Part shown: positions 1,685 through 7,059 of the stretch, in pieces
Layout: each line of letters opens with the position of its first letter
Position numbering within the stretch: the first letter of the stretch is position 1
Source of the DNA: Chloroflexota bacterium
GTDB lineage: Bacteria > Chloroflexota > Anaerolineae > Anaerolineales > Villigracilaceae
Assembly: GCA_021796315.1 (NCBI GenBank)
Contig: JAJYOH010000317.1
Location: forward strand, 1 to 7,059
DNA length: 7,059 bases
Reading direction: 5' to 3'
Notes under the pieces: generated by a model
The model's input: the letters and a program-made list of their open reading frames with translations, nothing else
What the model was told of the DNA's origin: nothing
The model's database searches: none
Translations under genes and position numbers: made by a program

Positions 1685-1727
1685 GTGCCATTGAGTTATG
1701 AAAATTGCTCGATGGCACTTTTATTTA
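1685..1727 (+). terminator. Intrinsic terminator/attenuator upstream of the thioredoxin-like gene
   Basis: GTGCCATTGAG (1685-1695) pairs with CTCGATGGCAC (1708-1718) over 11 bp with a single U-G wobble and a 12-base loop, followed at once by TTTTATTT (1719-1726). It sits downstream of the promoter and only about 20 bp before the start codon at 1740, so readthrough would be needed to express the operon from that promoter. CTCAA (1589-1593) could pair with TTGAG (1691-1695) and TGGCA (1642-1646) with TGCCA (1686-1690), offering possible but short antiterminator contacts. Confidence 0.75.
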
Positions 1728-1739
1728 GGAGTAAAGAAG

Positions 1740-2132
1740 ATGAAAGAACCTTTGCTGGTAGAGATCATAGCCTATGCGCCGACCGCTTTTTACCACTGCA
1801 CACATTGTGAGGTAGCTTGGCGCGAGATGGGTGCGAGCAATCGCATCCACGAAGAACAACTGGAGAGCAGTTTGCCTAAAGACCTTATCAACGAATACCA
1901 GGCCATATCTGACTGGGTGCAGGAAGCTTTTCGAGTCCATTGCGACCGAATTCTGGTGAAAGTAATCGATGCGGCTTCCCTGGAGGGCTTCTATAAATCG
2001 CTCAAATACAACGCGCGCCGTTACCCCGCCATTATCGTTGACCAAAAGGCACGCTTCATGGGAAGTCGCACACTGCAATCTGCTGCCGATGAAATCTCCC
2101 GACTATTGGCAGACCAGCCTGTTCCGGCATAA
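1740..2132 (+). CDS. Small thioredoxin-like fold protein with CXXC
   Basis: This 130-residue soluble protein has no signal peptide. It opens with a beta strand (LLVEIIAYAP), followed by the redox-type motif C20-T-H-C23 and a helix, as in thioredoxin-fold proteins. A charged helical middle (about 38-66) precedes a second strand (ILVKVIDA, 71-78). RYPAIIVD (94-101), with P96, sits where the cis-proline of thioredoxins is expected. An extra cysteine, C68, lies in the helical insert. A thiol redox or metal-handling role is inferred, with no known partner. I chose ATG 1740 because AGGAG (1727-1731) precedes it by 8 bases; the upstream ATG at 1698 lies in the terminator loop. It is followed after 127 bp by cstA on the same strand and probably shares its transcript. 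Confidence 0.75.
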   Translation: MKEPLLVEIIAYAPTAFYHCTHCEVAWREMGASNRIHEEQLESSLPKDLINEYQAISDWVQEAFRVHCDRILVKVIDAASLEGFYKSLKYNARRYPAIIVDQKARFMGSRTLQSAADEISRLLADQPVPA

Positions 2133-2259: not shown

Positions 2260-4155
2260 ATGAACACTCTCTGGATCGTGCTAATTGCAGCGGTCATCAT
2301 CTATCTGGCCTATAATTTTTATGCCAAAGTAGTGGACCGCGACATCATCCAGGCAGACGTCAAGAAAGCCACACCTGCCAAGATGTATATGGATGGCGTT
2401 GACTTCATGCCTACCAATCGAAATGTGTTATTCGGCTATCACTTCAAATCCATCGCGGCAGCCGGACCAATCGTCGGCGTGATCACCGCTGCCAATTTGT
2501 GGGGCTGGCTCCCGTCCCTGCTCTGGCTGATGATCGGCGTCTCGTTCATCGGCTGGGCCAGCGACTACAGCGCCATTGTCGTGGCAGTCCGCAATGATGG
2601 CAACAGCCTGAGCGCCATCAGTCACAAACTGATTGCCCCGCGTACCCGCAATATCATGTTCGTGTTCATTTTCTTCTACCTGTTGCTGGTAGCCGGCGCC
2701 TTCCTCGGCATTATGGCCGCTTTGATGGCCGCCCGCCCGGATGTGCCCTTCGGCATCGTCATGCTCGGCGTGATGGGCTTCCTGGCTGGACAGATGTTGT
2801 ATAAGTGGAAGATGGATTTGATCCTGGTAACCGCCATCGTGGTGATCGTGACCATTGCCGCCATGATCTTCGGTCCATTCGGCGCAGTTACCCCAGACGG
2901 AAAGCTTGACTTTACAAAAGGACCAATCAGCTCGGTGGTGGTCGGATTCAATAAAGCCGTTGACAGTTTGAGCGGCGGCAGTGCGCTTATGAAAGTGACC
3001 GATCCAACCGGGTCTGATCCGCGCATTCCTGTTCCGGGTGCGGATGGTAAACGGCCCACCACAGCCCTCTATGATGCCTCAACCGGTCTGATCAACACAT
3101 TGCCTTCCTATTTATGGTGGGCGCTCGTCCTGCTGATCTTTTCATATCTGGCATCCACATTACCCATCTGGCGTTTTGCCCAACCGGTTAACTATATCGG
3201 GTTCTGGATCACATTGATAACCATCGGCCTCAGCGCCCTTGGCGCGGTGCTGGCCCCATTCATCAAACCTGCTGTCGGTGCGTTCGCCCTGGATGCAGTC
3301 AAGATGCAATCCTGGGTACCGCTGGCTGGCAAAGCCTGGCAGCCAATTTGGCCGATGCTGTTCGTAACCATTGCCTGCGGAGCCATCTCCGGCTGGCACG
3401 CCCTCTTCGGCTCGATCGGTACCGCCCGTCAGTTGGAATACGAGACGGATGCCCTGCCGGTTGGCGGCGGTGCGATGTTCACCGAGAATACGCTGGCATT
3501 GCTCTCATTGGTTGCCGTTTCCATCGCCGGAACCGGCGGCGGCGCAGGCCGCTTCGCGGCAGGAGTTGGCAGCCTGCTGACGGTCATCTTCGGTGACGGC
3601 TTCAAGTTATTCGGCACGGCTCTTGGCTTCGGCGCCTTTATGGTCATCGTGCTGACCGTGACACAGTTGGTCTTCCGTGTAATGCGCGTGACGCTTTCAG
3701 AATGGGCCGGTGAAGTAATGCCCGCGCTGAAGAACATGCACGTTTCAACCTTTGTTTCAATGTTATTGACCATCTTGCTCGTGCTGACGGGCACCTGGGT
3801 TTACCTGTGGCAGTTGTTCGGTGCGGCCAATCAGTTGATGGCGGCGCTCAGCCTGCTGATCGTCACTGTCTGGCTAAAACAGCAGAAGAAAAATCCAGCT
3901 TACGCGTTGTGGCCCATGCTGTTCATGTACATCACGACACTGGCGGCCACACTAGTCACAGCCCGCAACCTGTACGTCACCATCGTCCCGATGGGCGGCA
4001 CTGAAGGGGCTGGCGCATGGGCCATGGTGATCATTTCCGTTCTGCTCTTCCTGGCTGCACTCTTCATTGGCTGGGACGGCTATCAGGCTTATCAGCGATA
4101 CGCCAAGGGCACTGGCGAAGCCAAGAAGAAACCGGCTTCGGCTGCAGCAGATTGA
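2260..4155 (+). CDS. cstA: CstA-family carbon starvation protein, membrane transporter
   Basis: This 631-residue polytopic inner-membrane protein belongs to the CstA family, whose studied members import pyruvate and have been linked to peptide uptake during carbon limitation. Family blocks are clear: FGYHFKSIAAAGPIVG (58-73), then LWLMIGVSFIGWASDY and VRNDGNSL (110-117), a central GAISGWHALFGS (about 374-385) followed by QLEYETDALPVGGGAM, and a late YLWQLFGAANQLMAA. Most of the remainder is strongly hydrophobic with many membrane segments. A polar stretch at about 210-280 (rich in Gly, Asp and Lys, with DPTGSDPRIPVPG) looks like a large external loop. The lysine/alanine tail (KKKPASAAAD) is probably cytoplasmic. 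The protein is somewhat shorter than the roughly 700-residue E. coli CstA. AAAGGAGG at 2240-2247 supports the start. It follows the CXXC protein and so falls under the same leader RNA. The substrate is inferred from the family only. Confidence 0.92.
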   Translation: MNTLWIVLIAAVIIYLAYNFYAKVVDRDIIQADVKKATPAKMYMDGVDFMPTNRNVLFGYHFKSIAAAGPIVGVITAANLWGWLPSLLWLMIGVSFIGWASDYSAIVVAVRNDGNSLSAISHKLIAPRTRNIMFVFIFFYLLLVAGAFLGIMAALMAARPDVPFGIVMLGVMGFLAGQMLYKWKMDLILVTAIVVIVTIAAMIFGPFGAVTPDGKLDFTKGPISSVVVGFNKAVDSLSGGSALMKVTDPTGSDPRIPVPGADGKRPTTALYDASTGLINTLPSYLWWALVLLIFSYLASTLPIWRFAQPVNYIGFWITLITIGLSALGAVLAPFIKPAVGAFALDAVKMQSWVPLAGKAWQPIWPMLFVTIACGAISGWHALFGSIGTARQLEYETDALPVGGGAMFTENTLALLSLVAVSIAGTGGGAGRFAAGVGSLLTVIFGDGFKLFGTALGFGAFMVIVLTVTQLVFRVMRVTLSEWAGEVMPALKNMHVSTFVSMLLTILLVLTGTWVYLWQLFGAANQLMAALSLLIVTVWLKQQKKNPAYALWPMLFMYITTLAATLVTARNLYVTIVPMGGTEGAGAWAMVIISVLLFLAALFIGWDGYQAYQRYAKGTGEAKKKPASAAAD

Positions 4156-4236: not shown

Positions 4237-4887
4237 TTATTTCCGTTCACCAACGGCTTGAGCCAGACTTCGCAAAGCTTCAAAATAATTCGCCGCATTT
4301 GTGGTTCGATGATCCGGGAAGGGAACATGAATTTCCAGGTTGGGCGTGTTCTTACGCAGACTTAAGCGCGTATAACGCTGTGAAAGTTTTTGCATGGGCG
4401 CGACAAGTTGATTAAGTGTTGCAGCCGCCAAATCCAAATGACCCCTGGGCGCCATTAATTGCATGTCCTGATAAGGCCTGCTTTCCCAGTTGCGGTTTGT
4501 AACATCCTTCAAAGCGGCGCGTCCGCTCCAGGATTTTGGGTCAGCCAGCTCGAGGTCCAGGAACGGAGGCGTAGTGGTGGCAGCGCGAAAGATGACGGTA
4601 TCGCGGCGTCCTTGAAAGATGGATAGAATCATCATCCAGAAAACATCTCGAGGCGCAAGCACCAGCAAAATATCCAGCCGCCGAAATGGTTTTTTTGCCT
4701 GGGTGATTCCGAGTTCGGCAACCGAGGTGCCAAGCCATCGAAAGGTCGTACGCGGACCGATGGCAGGAAGCCCAGCCTGCATCCATTTGAGTAGAACTTC
4801 TCCGCGGCGCAAATTGAAAATTACGCCGAAAGCGAACCAACTCATAATTATGACTATCGCAATGACCAGGATATATTGAGGATTCAT
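4237..4887 (-). CDS. Unidentified membrane-anchored protein, 216 aa
   Basis: I do not recognise the family. The protein begins with one hydrophobic segment (about 5-25, YILVIAIVIIMSWFAFGVIF) followed by NLRRGE, fitting an N-in signal anchor with the rest in the cytoplasm by the positive-inside rule. The soluble part starts KWMQAGLPAIGPRTTFRWLG and has alternating strands (LDILLVLAPRD, DTVIFRA) with a short hydrophobic helix between (FWMMILSIFQ, 84-92). The C-terminal half carries LDLELAD, RPYQDMQLMAPRGHLDLA and a final helical EALRSLAQAVGERK. No enzyme motif is evident. I chose the ATG at 4887 because GAGGTG lies just upstream on this strand and the protein then begins at the membrane segment; a longer form from 4971 would overlap the divergent gene. 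It converges on cstA and diverges from the ATPase operon. Confidence 0.75.
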   Translation of the reverse strand: MNPQYILVIAIVIIMSWFAFGVIFNLRRGEVLLKWMQAGLPAIGPRTTFRWLGTSVAELGITQAKKPFRRLDILLVLAPRDVFWMMILSIFQGRRDTVIFRAATTTPPFLDLELADPKSWSGRAALKDVTNRNWESRPYQDMQLMAPRGHLDLAAATLNQLVAPMQKLSQRYTRLSLRKNTPNLEIHVPFPDHRTTNAANYFEALRSLAQAVGERK

Positions 4888-4926: not shown

Positions 4927-4956
4927 ATAATATGAAAAGTAAGGAAGCTCAATCAA
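4927..4956 (-). promoter_or_regulatory. Probable promoter of the minus-strand gene, overlapping the divergent operon's start
   Basis: On the minus strand, TTGATT (complement of 4951-4956) and TATTAT (complement of 4927-4932) are 18 bp apart, about 40 bp before the ATG at 4887. The same AT-rich spot reads TATAAT on the plus strand (4926-4931), directly against the ATG at 4932, but with no good plus-strand -35. The promoter lies partly inside the first codons of the divergent gene, so the two units may influence each other. Confidence 0.45.
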
Positions 4957-5234
4957 CAAAAGGAAAAACAAATCTCCGGCAGGTTATCCATGATTTTCTT
5001 TATGGAATGCTTGGAATGGAGTTTGCCGAACACGCGCTCGAAATGCGTTCCAGTTTGGAAAGCTTGTTTATGCTGGGAACCGTCGGCGACATGATTGGCG
5101 TCCCGGTACTGCCGCCATATTATAGTCTGCGCCTGCTTCCTTATATTGTGCCCCAAATCTCGACTTGGAAGCGGCGGGTGTTGCGCGAGCGCGAATTCAC
5201 TGATGAGCACGACTATCATCTGGACGGTCTTTAG
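4932..5234 (+). CDS. Small protein of unknown family, first copy of a tandem pair
   Basis: This is a 100-residue protein of a family I do not recognise. Residues 1-13 are polar and lysine-rich; 14-45 are probably helical (LRQVIHDFLYGMLGMEF, then AEHALEMRSSLESLF). The core, about 52-86, is hydrophobic and proline-rich (GDMIGVPVLPPYYSLRLLPY, then IVPQISTWKRR), followed by a charged tail ending in HDYHLDGL. The hydrophobic stretch with a following basic cluster could associate with or insert in the membrane. The core is nearly identical to that of the next gene, so this is a tandem duplicate. The ATG at 4932 aligns best with the length of the paralogue, but no Shine-Dalgarno is visible; an in-frame GTG at 4899 is the alternative. 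It heads a co-directional set leading into two ArsA/Get3-like ATPases, suggesting a partner or client role (inference). Confidence 0.72.
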   Translation: MKSKEAQSTKGKTNLRQVIHDFLYGMLGMEFAEHALEMRSSLESLFMLGTVGDMIGVPVLPPYYSLRLLPYIVPQISTWKRRVLREREFTDEHDYHLDGL

Positions 5235-5522
5235 GCATTATGCAAGTCTAAATTCATTTCTGAAAGGATCTATTCGATGAGCCAAGAAAAACCCGAAAAG
5301 AAGAGCTTCTGGCAGAACGCAAAGGAAGTAATCTACGGCATGGCTTCACATGATATGAGCCGCTACGCCGTGCGAACGCGCGCCAGCATGGAACATCTTT
5401 TCATTTTGATTACGATGGGCGATATGATCGGCGTCCCGATTTTGCCGCCGTATTACAGCCTGCGCCTGCTTCCTTACGTTGTGCCTCAAATCTCGACCTG
5501 GAAGCGGCGATTGTTACGCGAG
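5085..5522 (+). repeat. Imperfect direct repeat: 105-bp conserved cores of the two small genes
   Basis: The blocks 5085-5189 and 5418-5522 align without gaps and agree at 90 of 105 positions by my hand count. Most of the differences are silent, and only three codons change the residue, conservatively. Flanking coding sequence is much more diverged, so either strong purifying selection or gene conversion maintains the core. The coordinates span both copies and the sequence between them. Confidence 0.85.
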
Positions 5523-5549
5523 AAAGATGTATCTGACGCCATGTTCTAG
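5277..5549 (+). CDS. Small protein of unknown family, second copy of a tandem pair
   Basis: This 90-residue paralogue of the preceding protein starts 42 bp after it. The N-terminus is polar (MSQEKPEKKSFW), followed by AKEVIYGMASHDM, which aligns with the FLYGMLGM region of copy one. The core (48-82) shares 32 of 35 residues with copy one, with only Val/Ile and Val/Leu exchanges, and ends in the same QISTWKRR basic patch. It lacks the histidine- and aspartate-containing tail of copy one. The start is supported by GAAAGGA (about 5261-5267) at normal spacing. Its stop codon overlaps the ribosome binding site of the ATPase gene 11 bp downstream, so co-translation with that ATPase is likely. Function is unknown; the context implies work with the ATPases, possibly at the membrane. 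Confidence 0.82.
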   Translation: MSQEKPEKKSFWQNAKEVIYGMASHDMSRYAVRTRASMEHLFILITMGDMIGVPILPPYYSLRLLPYVVPQISTWKRRLLREKDVSDAMF

Positions 5550-5560
5550 GAGAACTGACA

Positions 5561-6535
5561 ATGTCACTAAAACAGGTTTTTGAGGAACACCCCGAACGAC
5601 GCTACATTATGTTCGGCGGTAAGGGAGGGTTGGGCAAAACCACATTCTCGGCCGCGACTGCCTATTGGCTGGCAAAGCAGGGCAAGAAGGTGCTGGTCTT
5701 TTCAGTTGACCCACAGGCAAGCCTTTCCGATATTTTTCAGAAGGATATCTTCGGCAAGGGTCCCGTGAAGATTATGGATAATTTGTGGGCGCAGGAAATT
5801 GACGCCGATTCGCACATCAAGAACTATCAGAATGACATCCGCAAGAAAATTTTGGACATGTACGGTTTCGATCAGGTGCCTGATGAGATCGAACAATATA
5901 TCCAGGCTGCATCCGCAGAACCGGCCATGGAAGAAAGCGCCATCTTCGATGCCGTGGTGGACATCGTGATTGGCGGCGAGTACGACTATTATATTTATGA
6001 CCTCGTCCCACTCGGCCATGCTCTCTACTATCTAAGCATGGCAAAAGTGTACGACGAGTGGATCAACAAGATCACCAAATTACGCGAAGAGATGCGCGAG
6101 TACGAAGAAATGGTCTCCCGCTTAAAACGCGAGAAGGAGACCGAGGAAGATCAGATCCTCACCGAACTGCAATACATCCGCACGCGCATCAACGCATCGT
6201 CGAGCATCCTGACAGACAAGGAAAAGACCGGCTTCTTCTTTGTCGTAATTCCAGAAGAAATGATCCTGATCGACACAGCCAAGGCTGCTGAATTGTTCGC
6301 CAAATTCGATGTGCCGATCATGGGCTACGTGGTCAATCGTGTTGTGCCGCGTGAACTGCTCTCCCAAAATATCCCATCCTACCTGAAGAACCGCATCGAG
6401 ATGCAGGATAAATACCTGGAAGAGATCAAGACCATGTTCGGCCAGCAGGTGGCGGCGCACGTTCCCGAATTGGAACGCGACGTGACCGGCCTGGATATGA
6501 TCAAGCAGCTTGCAGAAATCATGTACGGAAAGTAG
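5561..6535 (+). CDS. ArsA/Get3-like P-loop ATPase, first copy
   Basis: This 324-residue soluble ATPase belongs to the ArsA/Get3 branch of the SIMIBI class of P-loop NTPases, dimeric enzymes that drive arsenite efflux or tail-anchored protein targeting. Visible motifs are the deviant Walker A GGKGGLGKTT (19-28, with signature lysine K21), Switch I SVDPQASLSD (48-57) with the putative catalytic D50, and a Switch II position reading YDLVPLGHAL (146-155) instead of the usual FDTAPTGHTL. A charged, probably coiled-coil helical region (about 166-200) sits where Get3 has its client-binding helices. VVNR (257-260) fits the adenine-contacting Asn, and PELERDVTGLD (302-312) fits the C-terminal family block. 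There are no cysteines, so neither the ArsA metalloid site nor the Get3 CXXC zinc site exists. AGGAGA (5548-5553), overlapping the previous stop codon, drives translation. Confidence 0.9.
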   Translation: MSLKQVFEEHPERRYIMFGGKGGLGKTTFSAATAYWLAKQGKKVLVFSVDPQASLSDIFQKDIFGKGPVKIMDNLWAQEIDADSHIKNYQNDIRKKILDMYGFDQVPDEIEQYIQAASAEPAMEESAIFDAVVDIVIGGEYDYYIYDLVPLGHALYYLSMAKVYDEWINKITKLREEMREYEEMVSRLKREKETEEDQILTELQYIRTRINASSSILTDKEKTGFFFVVIPEEMILIDTAKAAELFAKFDVPIMGYVVNRVVPRELLSQNIPSYLKNRIEMQDKYLEEIKTMFGQQVAAHVPELERDVTGLDMIKQLAEIMYGK

Positions 6536-6540
6536 GAGGA
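6534..6540 (+). promoter_or_regulatory. Ribosome binding site overlapping the stop codon of ATPase 1
   Basis: AGGAGGA begins within the TAG stop (6533-6535) of the first ATPase and ends four bases before the ATG at 6545. This fixes the start of the second ATPase and implies translational coupling, hence roughly matched production of the two proteins. Confidence 0.8.
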
Positions 6541-6544
6541 TGCC

Positions 6545-7059
6545 ATGACAACTTCAATTGAAACCTCCATGAAAAAATATGTCAGCGACCACCAGCGCTT
6601 GAAGTACCTGTTCTTCGGCGGCAAGGGCGGCGTGGGCAAAACCGCCCTGGCGGGCGCGACGGCCATTTGGCTGGCGAAGCAGGGCATGCGCGTCATGCTG
6701 GCATCCACCAATCCCGTTCACAGCCTGAGTGGATTACTGGGACAAAACGTCTTCGGCAAGCCGACTGCGGTCAATGGCATCCCAAATCTATGGGCGTATG
6801 AAATCGACACAAAAGAGACCATCGAGCGTTCCAAACAGGAAATCCGCGACAAGATCCAATGGTTCCTAAAGTTCGCGGATATTTCCACGAAGGCCGAAGA
6901 GTTTGTCGAGTCGGCTACCATGAACCCGGCTTTTGAAGAATCAGCCATGTTCGAAAACATGGTGGACCTGATGCTAGGCGGCGAATATGATGTGTATGTT
7001 TTCGACACCGCCCCCACCGCCAACGCCCGCCGTTTGCTGGCCGAACATGGTCTTGATCT
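6545..7059 (+). CDS. ArsA/Get3-like P-loop ATPase, second copy (3' partial)
   Basis: The frame is open to the window edge, giving the first 171 residues of a paralogue of the preceding ATPase. Walker A is intact: GGKGGVGKTA (25-34). Switch I reads STNPVHSLSG (54-63), so N56 stands where ArsA/Get3 proteins have an Asp (D57 in yeast Get3, the residue that activates the attacking water). Switch II reads FDTAPTANAR (153-162), keeping DTAPT but replacing the usual Gly-His with Ala-Asn. The NPAFEESAMF and LGGEYDVYVFD segments match the first copy closely. No cysteine is seen in the visible part. It may bind ATP but hydrolyse it poorly, acting as the regulatory half of a heterodimer (inference). It lies 9 bp after copy one. 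The helical client-binding region and C-terminus are outside the window. Confidence 0.88.
   Translation, partial: MTTSIETSMKKYVSDHQRLKYLFFGGKGGVGKTALAGATAIWLAKQGMRVMLASTNPVHSLSGLLGQNVFGKPTAVNGIPNLWAYEIDTKETIERSKQEIRDKIQWFLKFADISTKAEEFVESATMNPAFEESAMFENMVDLMLGGEYDVYVFDTAPTANARRLLAEHGLD

Follow-up and report, generated by a model that had tools for sequence, protein, structure and literature searches.

A conserved module of CstX-type small proteins and paired Get3-like ATPases associated with CstA transporters

A conserved gene set beside CstA

What do two small proteins and two ArsA/Get3-family ATPases, encoded side by side as two pairs of paralogues, do for a bacterium? The question is raised by a stretch of 7,059 nucleotides from a Chloroflexota bacterium (contig JAJYOH010000317.1 of assembly GCA_021796315.1), hereafter the window. 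On its forward strand, the genes of two small proteins of the CstX type, S1 (positions 4932..5234, 100 amino acids) and S2 (5277..5549, 90 amino acids), are followed by those of the ATPases A1 (5561..6535, 324 amino acids) and A2 (6545..7059, an open frame cut by the window end). Gaps of 42, 11 and 9 bp separate the four genes, and the TAG stops of S2 and A1 overlap AGGAG/AGGAGG directly ahead of the next gene. They form one tight operon, and the co-directional layout with stop codons overlapping ribosome binding sites, described in the initial annotation of this DNA, is borne out by the open reading frames and the sequence. So is the two-plus-two paralogy, S1 and S2 being identical at 47 of 86 positions (E 2e-36), and A1 and A2, as far as the latter is visible, at 66 of 159 (E 6e-37). 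That annotation took the genes for one conserved system unrelated to arsenic resistance, which stands, but it also called the system undescribed and suggested, as one option, that each small protein pairs with one ATPase, which does not, and it overlooked the CstA-family transporter encoded upstream (2260..4155, forward strand, 631 amino acids; Pfam CstA, E 3.7e-104, with the match in three stretches). The four genes, here called the module, and CstA very probably constitute one system.

Relatives of the module were located by scanning genome_contigs, a collection of 84,980 species genomes by its own description, with a 12-row S profile. The scan gave 375 coding places, of which we kept the best 80, a selection biased to close S2 relatives; locus counts out of 80 refer to these loci, found through S2. 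Their record titles span seven phyla (Chloroflexi, Acidobacteria, Proteobacteria, Desulfobacteraceae/Thermodesulfobacteriota, Gemmatimonadetes, actinobacteria and one "Bacteroidetes" bin), and nearly all are metagenome bins. S2 is 70 to 97% identical to that of the window in all 80 loci; among 5143 candidates scored, 5142 were S2 relatives with E ≤ 1e-3. An A1-type ATPase is present in 78 of the 80 loci and an A2-type in 72, the type being assigned by the best-scoring profile. The two loci missing A1 and the further six missing A2 all lie on contigs that end inside A1 or at most 140 bases past S2 or A1, so that the small proteins adjoin ArsA/Get3-like genes as one system, as had been proposed. 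Median identity to the window is 80.5% for S2, 80.2% for A1, 67.3% for CstA (in the 59 loci where coverage by the window CstA is at least 60%) and 39.1% for M, a protein encoded between CstA and S1; S2 and A1 are the most conserved parts.

A CstA homologue occurs in 67 of the 80 loci, on the same strand and at most 3.5 kb upstream of S2 in 63 of them. The other four have it at 4.3 kb (L023), about 7.5 kb away (L065), as a distant fragment (L006) or downstream (L025), the last being a rearranged locus with the same genes in the order S1-S2-A1-A2-CstA-M-T, where T is a thioredoxin-like protein. Thirteen loci lack CstA: six are on contigs that end at most 1.3 kb upstream, and seven have no CstA there. 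The genomes of 50 of the 80 loci were searched for CstA (PF02554) and for YbdD (PF04328), the small protein adjacent to CstA in Escherichia coli, with E. coli and C. glutamicum as YbdD-positive controls. CstA was found in 49 of these module genomes (the miss being G045), including all seven in which it is not adjacent to the module, and YbdD in none of the 50. One genome, G013, carries CstA with an S copy of its own and no adjoining ATPase match (L099), and the ATPases with another S on a different contig (L028).

Genomes were also drawn by phylum (81 Chloroflexota, 60 Actinomycetota and 60 Pseudomonadota, each draw including a chosen centre genome). Six of the Chloroflexota encode CstA, all six with S, and none of the 81 encodes YbdD; the centre, G001, is one of the six, and G001 and G035 were already among the 80 loci. 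The S profile matched eight Chloroflexota genomes, namely these six plus G111 (internal stop) and G135 (E 6.6e-4, internal stop), both of which lack CstA. By our own arithmetic, the five-of-five coincidence among the 80 genomes other than the centre has a chance of about 1e-6 if the genomes are independent, relatedness being uncontrolled. Sixteen Actinomycetota encode CstA, eight together with YbdD, seven with S or its relative, a cory-CC-star protein (one of them the centre), none with both and one with neither; YbdD and S/CC-star are both absent from the 44 Actinomycetota that lack CstA. A universal rule pairing each CstA with either YbdD or CstX was rejected, as it holds in 15 of 16 Actinomycetota and 6 of 6 Chloroflexota with CstA and fails in 24 of 34 Pseudomonadota. 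YbdD is unseen where the module occurs, and CstA is not always partnered.

S1 and S2 match NF041419, the cory-CC-star family, with 31.4 bits (E 1.4e-7) and 34.3 bits (E 1.7e-8), respectively; these E values support homology to cory-CC-star proteins, although the bit scores are below the cut-off of 80. Neither small protein contains Cys, and hence neither has the C-terminal CC of cory-CC-star proteins, a feature taken here from the family name and the loci read. YbdD was considered as a detectable homologue of S/CC-star and rejected (hhalign probability <1%). A Pfam scan of S1 and S2 gave no match; PF25952.1 is precomputed for S2 relatives, and the local Pfam did not report it in S1, S2 or three relatives scanned. 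The small proteins had been called hydrophobic, but their Kyte-Doolittle peaks over 19 residues, 1.45 and 1.53 (the latter for S2), are under the customary membrane-helix line of 1.6. Among the 80 loci, some on truncated contigs, 13 have one S copy, 51 two, 15 three and one four, and a further CstX-type protein lies 3′ of A2 in 16 of the 60 loci with room for it (e.g., L001:12243-12524). A1 and A2 never exceed one copy each per locus. Because the number of S copies varies and that of A1 and A2 does not, an assignment of one small protein to each ATPase is unlikely.

Further searches added little. S2 had no match in a search of plasmids, megablast of locus L114 against plasmids gave 2% coverage only, comparison with PHROGs yielded nothing informative, and searches of PDB sequences with S, CstA and M returned no matches or unrelated ones.

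Active sites of the paired ATPases

Both ATPases match Pfam ArsA_ATPase (A1, E 1.7e-75; A2, E 4.5e-39); against TIGR00345 (Get3/TRC40, cut-off 135), A1 scores 240.2 bits and the truncated A2 130.7. Their motifs were compared in 74 A1 rows (73 loci and the window) and 67 A2 rows, from which frames shorter than 250 amino acids (six A1, three A2) were left out. In A1, switch I reads SVDP in 74 of 74 long rows, and in all 78 frames when truncated ones are included, and switch II reads DLVPLGHALYYLS in 74 of 74. In A2, switch I reads STNP in 67 of 67 long rows and in 72 of 72 frames, truncated ones included, and switch II reads FDTAPTANARRLL in 67 of 67; the visible part of the window's own A2 has STNP and DTAPTANARRLL. 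The P-loop signature is retained in 73 of the 74 A1 and all 67 A2 rows. Neither protein has the canonical STDP with DTAPTGHT: A1 keeps the switch-I Asp (SVDP) with a rewritten switch II (DLVPLGHA), and A2 replaces that Asp with Asn (STNP) beside DTAPTANA. The Asn aligns with the switch-I Asp of the archaeal structures 3ug6 and 3zq6. All seven single CstA-linked ATPases checked have the canonical STDP and DTAPTGH.

Hydrolysis by yeast Get3 requires D57, and the D57N substitution traps the ATP state, according to the excerpts available of the paper (PMC12506534). The A2 site is expected to be hydrolysis-dead, because its Asn is the equivalent of Get3 D57N. A hetero-complex evolved by duplication had been suggested at the outset, and that idea gains support because the active-site changes in A1 and A2, each invariant, are complementary. 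Judging from these motifs, A1 and A2 are likely to be an obligate heterodimer in which a single site hydrolyses ATP, which would make them a natural Get3-type pair with a laboratory hydrolysis-dead change fixed in one subunit.

A midpoint-rooted tree of 45 ATPases (19 A1, 19 A2, 4 single and 3 other, one single row being long-branched) recovers an A1 clade (support 100/100) and an A2 clade (100/99) as sisters (99/95), with the single CstA-linked ATPases next. Because A1 and A2 are each one clade, and sisters in this sample, the sequences indicate one A1/A2 duplication, common to the sampled phyla, followed by fixed complementary changes.

The A2 frame of the window ends in 25 bases (7035..7059) that reproduce 6423-6447 exactly, in inverted orientation. 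Where the window enters this copy, A2 reads on as RRLLGMS in 67 of 67 long rows from relatives. Because the inverted copy is exact and the conserved continuation of A2 is broken there, the contig-end bases are probably an assembly fold-back rather than genuine A2 sequence.

Possible roles of the ATP cycle

We lean towards a role of S1/S2 and A1/A2 as accessory subunits of CstA, with the ATP cycle of the heterodimer acting on transport. The module would serve the CstA encoded upstream, in the place that YbdD holds beside E. coli CstA. A1 and A2 would form an obligate Get3/ArsA-type heterodimer in which both subunits bind ATP, hydrolysis takes place at the A1 site only and the A2 site holds its ATP. 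The CstX-type small proteins would connect the ATPase to CstA by physical contact, and the ATP cycle would open, energize or license CstA, which may import a small carboxylate such as pyruvate. That ATP gates or energizes transport, rather than driving CstA assembly, is a choice we favour slightly. Such a role would turn a "hypothetical" gene set of seven phyla into a testable CstA accessory complex, and it opens to direct test the idea that a secondary carrier can be powered or gated by relatives of ArsA/Get3.

Several observations weigh against this role. CstA is encoded in 34 of the 60 Pseudomonadota, where nine have YbdD, one (the centre) has S and 24 have neither, and the neighbourhoods of these 24 CstA genes contain no match to S, CC-star, YbdD or the ATPases. 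Five of the 24 genomes encode a long CstA with an RCC tail of its own (L162, L163, L164, L165 and L166); in the other 19 the stretch fetched, limited in G228 by a contig end 174 bases past the CstA frame, contains no visible partner. In two module genomes, G021 and G042, no YbdD was found although each encodes an additional, unbroken CstA. The predicted model of S2 is poor, consisting of two low-confidence helices (residues 9-51 and 65-89; predicted local distance difference test score, pLDDT, 61). No biochemistry of CstX or of a CstA-linked ATPase was found in the literature, of which few subscription journals were covered. Finally, the fold of M resembles that of a membrane-protein biogenesis factor, which favours assembly.

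The CstA proteins themselves differ in two respects. YbdD ends in CC in eight of nine sequences read, and the RCC tail of the five Pseudomonadota CstA proteins is the tail of YbdD, close to the CC of CC-star proteins; no RCC tail is present on CstA of E. coli or of one actinobacterial YbdD genome. Some CstA systems may have in common, as a working part, a C-terminal Cys-Cys tail, which S1/S2 lack. The PF02554 match is unbroken in CstA of YbdD genomes (7 of 8 Actinomycetota, 9 of 9 Pseudomonadota) and breaks at about profile positions 353-410 in that of S/CC-star genomes (7 of 7 Actinomycetota); partnerless CstA can also break there. By this pattern, the 353-410 stretch may be a partner-binding place on CstA.

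The evidence of M bears on a second explanation, a biogenesis machine in which the Get3-like heterodimer and a CCDC47-like M insert, fold or assemble the many-pass CstA and/or S, transport then being ATP-free. We regard it as possible but distinctly less probable than a role in transport. M (4237..4887, reverse strand, 216 amino acids), encoded divergently from S1, has a homologue in 54 of the 80 loci. Its predicted structure (pLDDT 95) comprises a single membrane helix and a cytosolic domain with a fold like that of a eukaryotic subunit of the translocon, CCDC47 being the likeliest and having the same two parts, and less closely like that of mycobacterial TtfA; the absence of other folds from the match list proves nothing. 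No sequence homology to CCDC47 was detected, identity in the structural alignment being 8%. M has no match in Pfam or NCBIfam, and comparison of 49 M members with Pfam, and of their profile with PDB sequences, gave weak, unrelated matches only. PAT components are absent from prokaryotes or bacteria according to two published papers, and CCDC47 is described in the literature as lacking in prokaryotes. By size and topology, the features compared, M is perhaps the counterpart of archaeal CstY. A bacterial transporter-side machine for both assembly and energy, joining a half-active Get3-type heterodimer to a CCDC47-fold single-pass protein, is a doubtful proposition; if true, the Get3 and CCDC47 lines would have cooperated on multipass proteins long before the endoplasmic reticulum. 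The fold predicted for M, like that of CCDC47, is relevant to the origin of the eukaryotic multipass translocon.

A third explanation is that the genes regulate CstA according to the nutrient or energy state, as a sensor or switch. The A1-A2 pair would then be a clamp dependent on ATP/ADP, and would neither energize transport nor act as a chaperone. The expectation that A2 holds ATP without hydrolysis, as in Get3 D57N, would suit a clamp, as would the higher median identities of S2 and A1 than of CstA. CstA and YbdD have moreover been associated with carbon starvation (PMC5847655, in the excerpts available). No regulatory domain was seen in the parts scanned, and we consider regulation improbable.

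T (1698..2132, forward strand), the thioredoxin-like protein with a CxxC motif encoded upstream of CstA, has a homologue in 32 of the 80 loci and gives weak matches only (DUF1525, E 0.003, below the cut-off, and ArsE-like). Although this neighbour and the ArsA-family ATPases would fit arsenite or other metalloid resistance through a non-ArsB carrier, such a function is extremely improbable, and arsenic resistance was rejected, in agreement with the initial annotation: A1 lacks Cys in 71 of 74 rows, that of the window among them, and the visible part of the window A2 shows none; TIGR04291, the arsenical pump family with two fused domains and an essential Cys, gives 111.9 bits (cut-off 650), and the domain here is single; the ATPases apart, none of the window proteins scanned (seven plus three more) is an ars gene product; and the carrier is CstA.

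Comparison with known systems

The module belongs among known CstA systems. In the excerpts available of their paper, Castillo and Saier (2010) reported 26 CstA-ArsA associations, 24 of them with CstX, and proposed that CstX couples ATP hydrolysis by ArsA to CstA (PMC2963123). The same excerpts describe two organisms in which ArsA genes are paired side by side (their cluster 15), CstY proteins of about 210 amino acids with one transmembrane segment in five archaea, and single-domain ArsA homologues in which the D of the SXD motif is replaceable only by N. DTAP is there called remarkably conserved across every homologue examined, if to a lesser degree among those with a single domain, and homodimers are suggested (PMC2963123). 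The window shares with these operons CstA, a CstX of about 90 amino acids, single-domain ArsA homologues of about 330 amino acids and the lack of ars genes; its CstA lies beside ArsA homologues, and its A1 is a single-domain protein. S2 fits the published CstX in size and place; CstX is described with a single transmembrane segment, and the hydropathy peak of S2, 1.53, is below the customary line for one. The window is a member of the CstA-CstX-ArsA kind, which, adjacent ArsA pairs included, was published in 2010, and the Asn substitution itself has been seen before.

A functional parallel is that of E. coli, where pyruvate uptake requires both CstA and YbdD, as stated in the excerpts available (PMC5847655). 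In both cases the neighbour of CstA is a small protein, which E. coli needs for uptake, but no ATPase gene adjoins the E. coli pair. In the cory-CC-star systems (NF041419), too, CstA and an ATPase adjoin a small protein homologous to S1/S2; these systems differ in having a single canonical ATPase and a small protein that ends in CC, unlike the Cys-less S1/S2. All four Actinomycetota loci above the NF041419 cut-off encode CstA and one ATPase, with a small protein ending in CC in each. Plasmids of Pseudochrobactrum, Paracoccus and Cytobacillus likewise carry CstA, a "cory-CC-star protein" and an "ArsA family ATPase" (three of three opened, out of six found). The literature search described above found no experimental work following up the 2010 proposal, and no papers on "cory-CC-star" proteins or on carbon starvation with CstA and Get3.

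Among the ATPases, BagA/BagB of mycobacteria (PDB 6bs3, Rv3679/Rv3680) likewise unite two Get3-like ATPases in one entry but are distant (NF053622, 51 bits; cut-off 400). A1 resembles Get3/TRC40 proteins, which bind tail-anchored clients, in exceeding the TIGR00345 cut-off and matching archaeal 3ug6 with E 2.6e-63; these proteins differ from the window system in its rewritten switches, its Cys-less A1, its paired genes and its CstA context. Relative to the operons of Castillo and Saier, in the excerpts of which the Asn is not tied to one member of a pair (PMC2963123), the window kind has Asn fixed in A2 and DTAP rewritten in A1, S mostly duplicated and M divergently encoded. What is new here is the Asn fixed in one partner while the other has a rewritten DTAP, together with the lack of YbdD in the module genomes searched, the link to CC-star proteins and the predicted fold of M.

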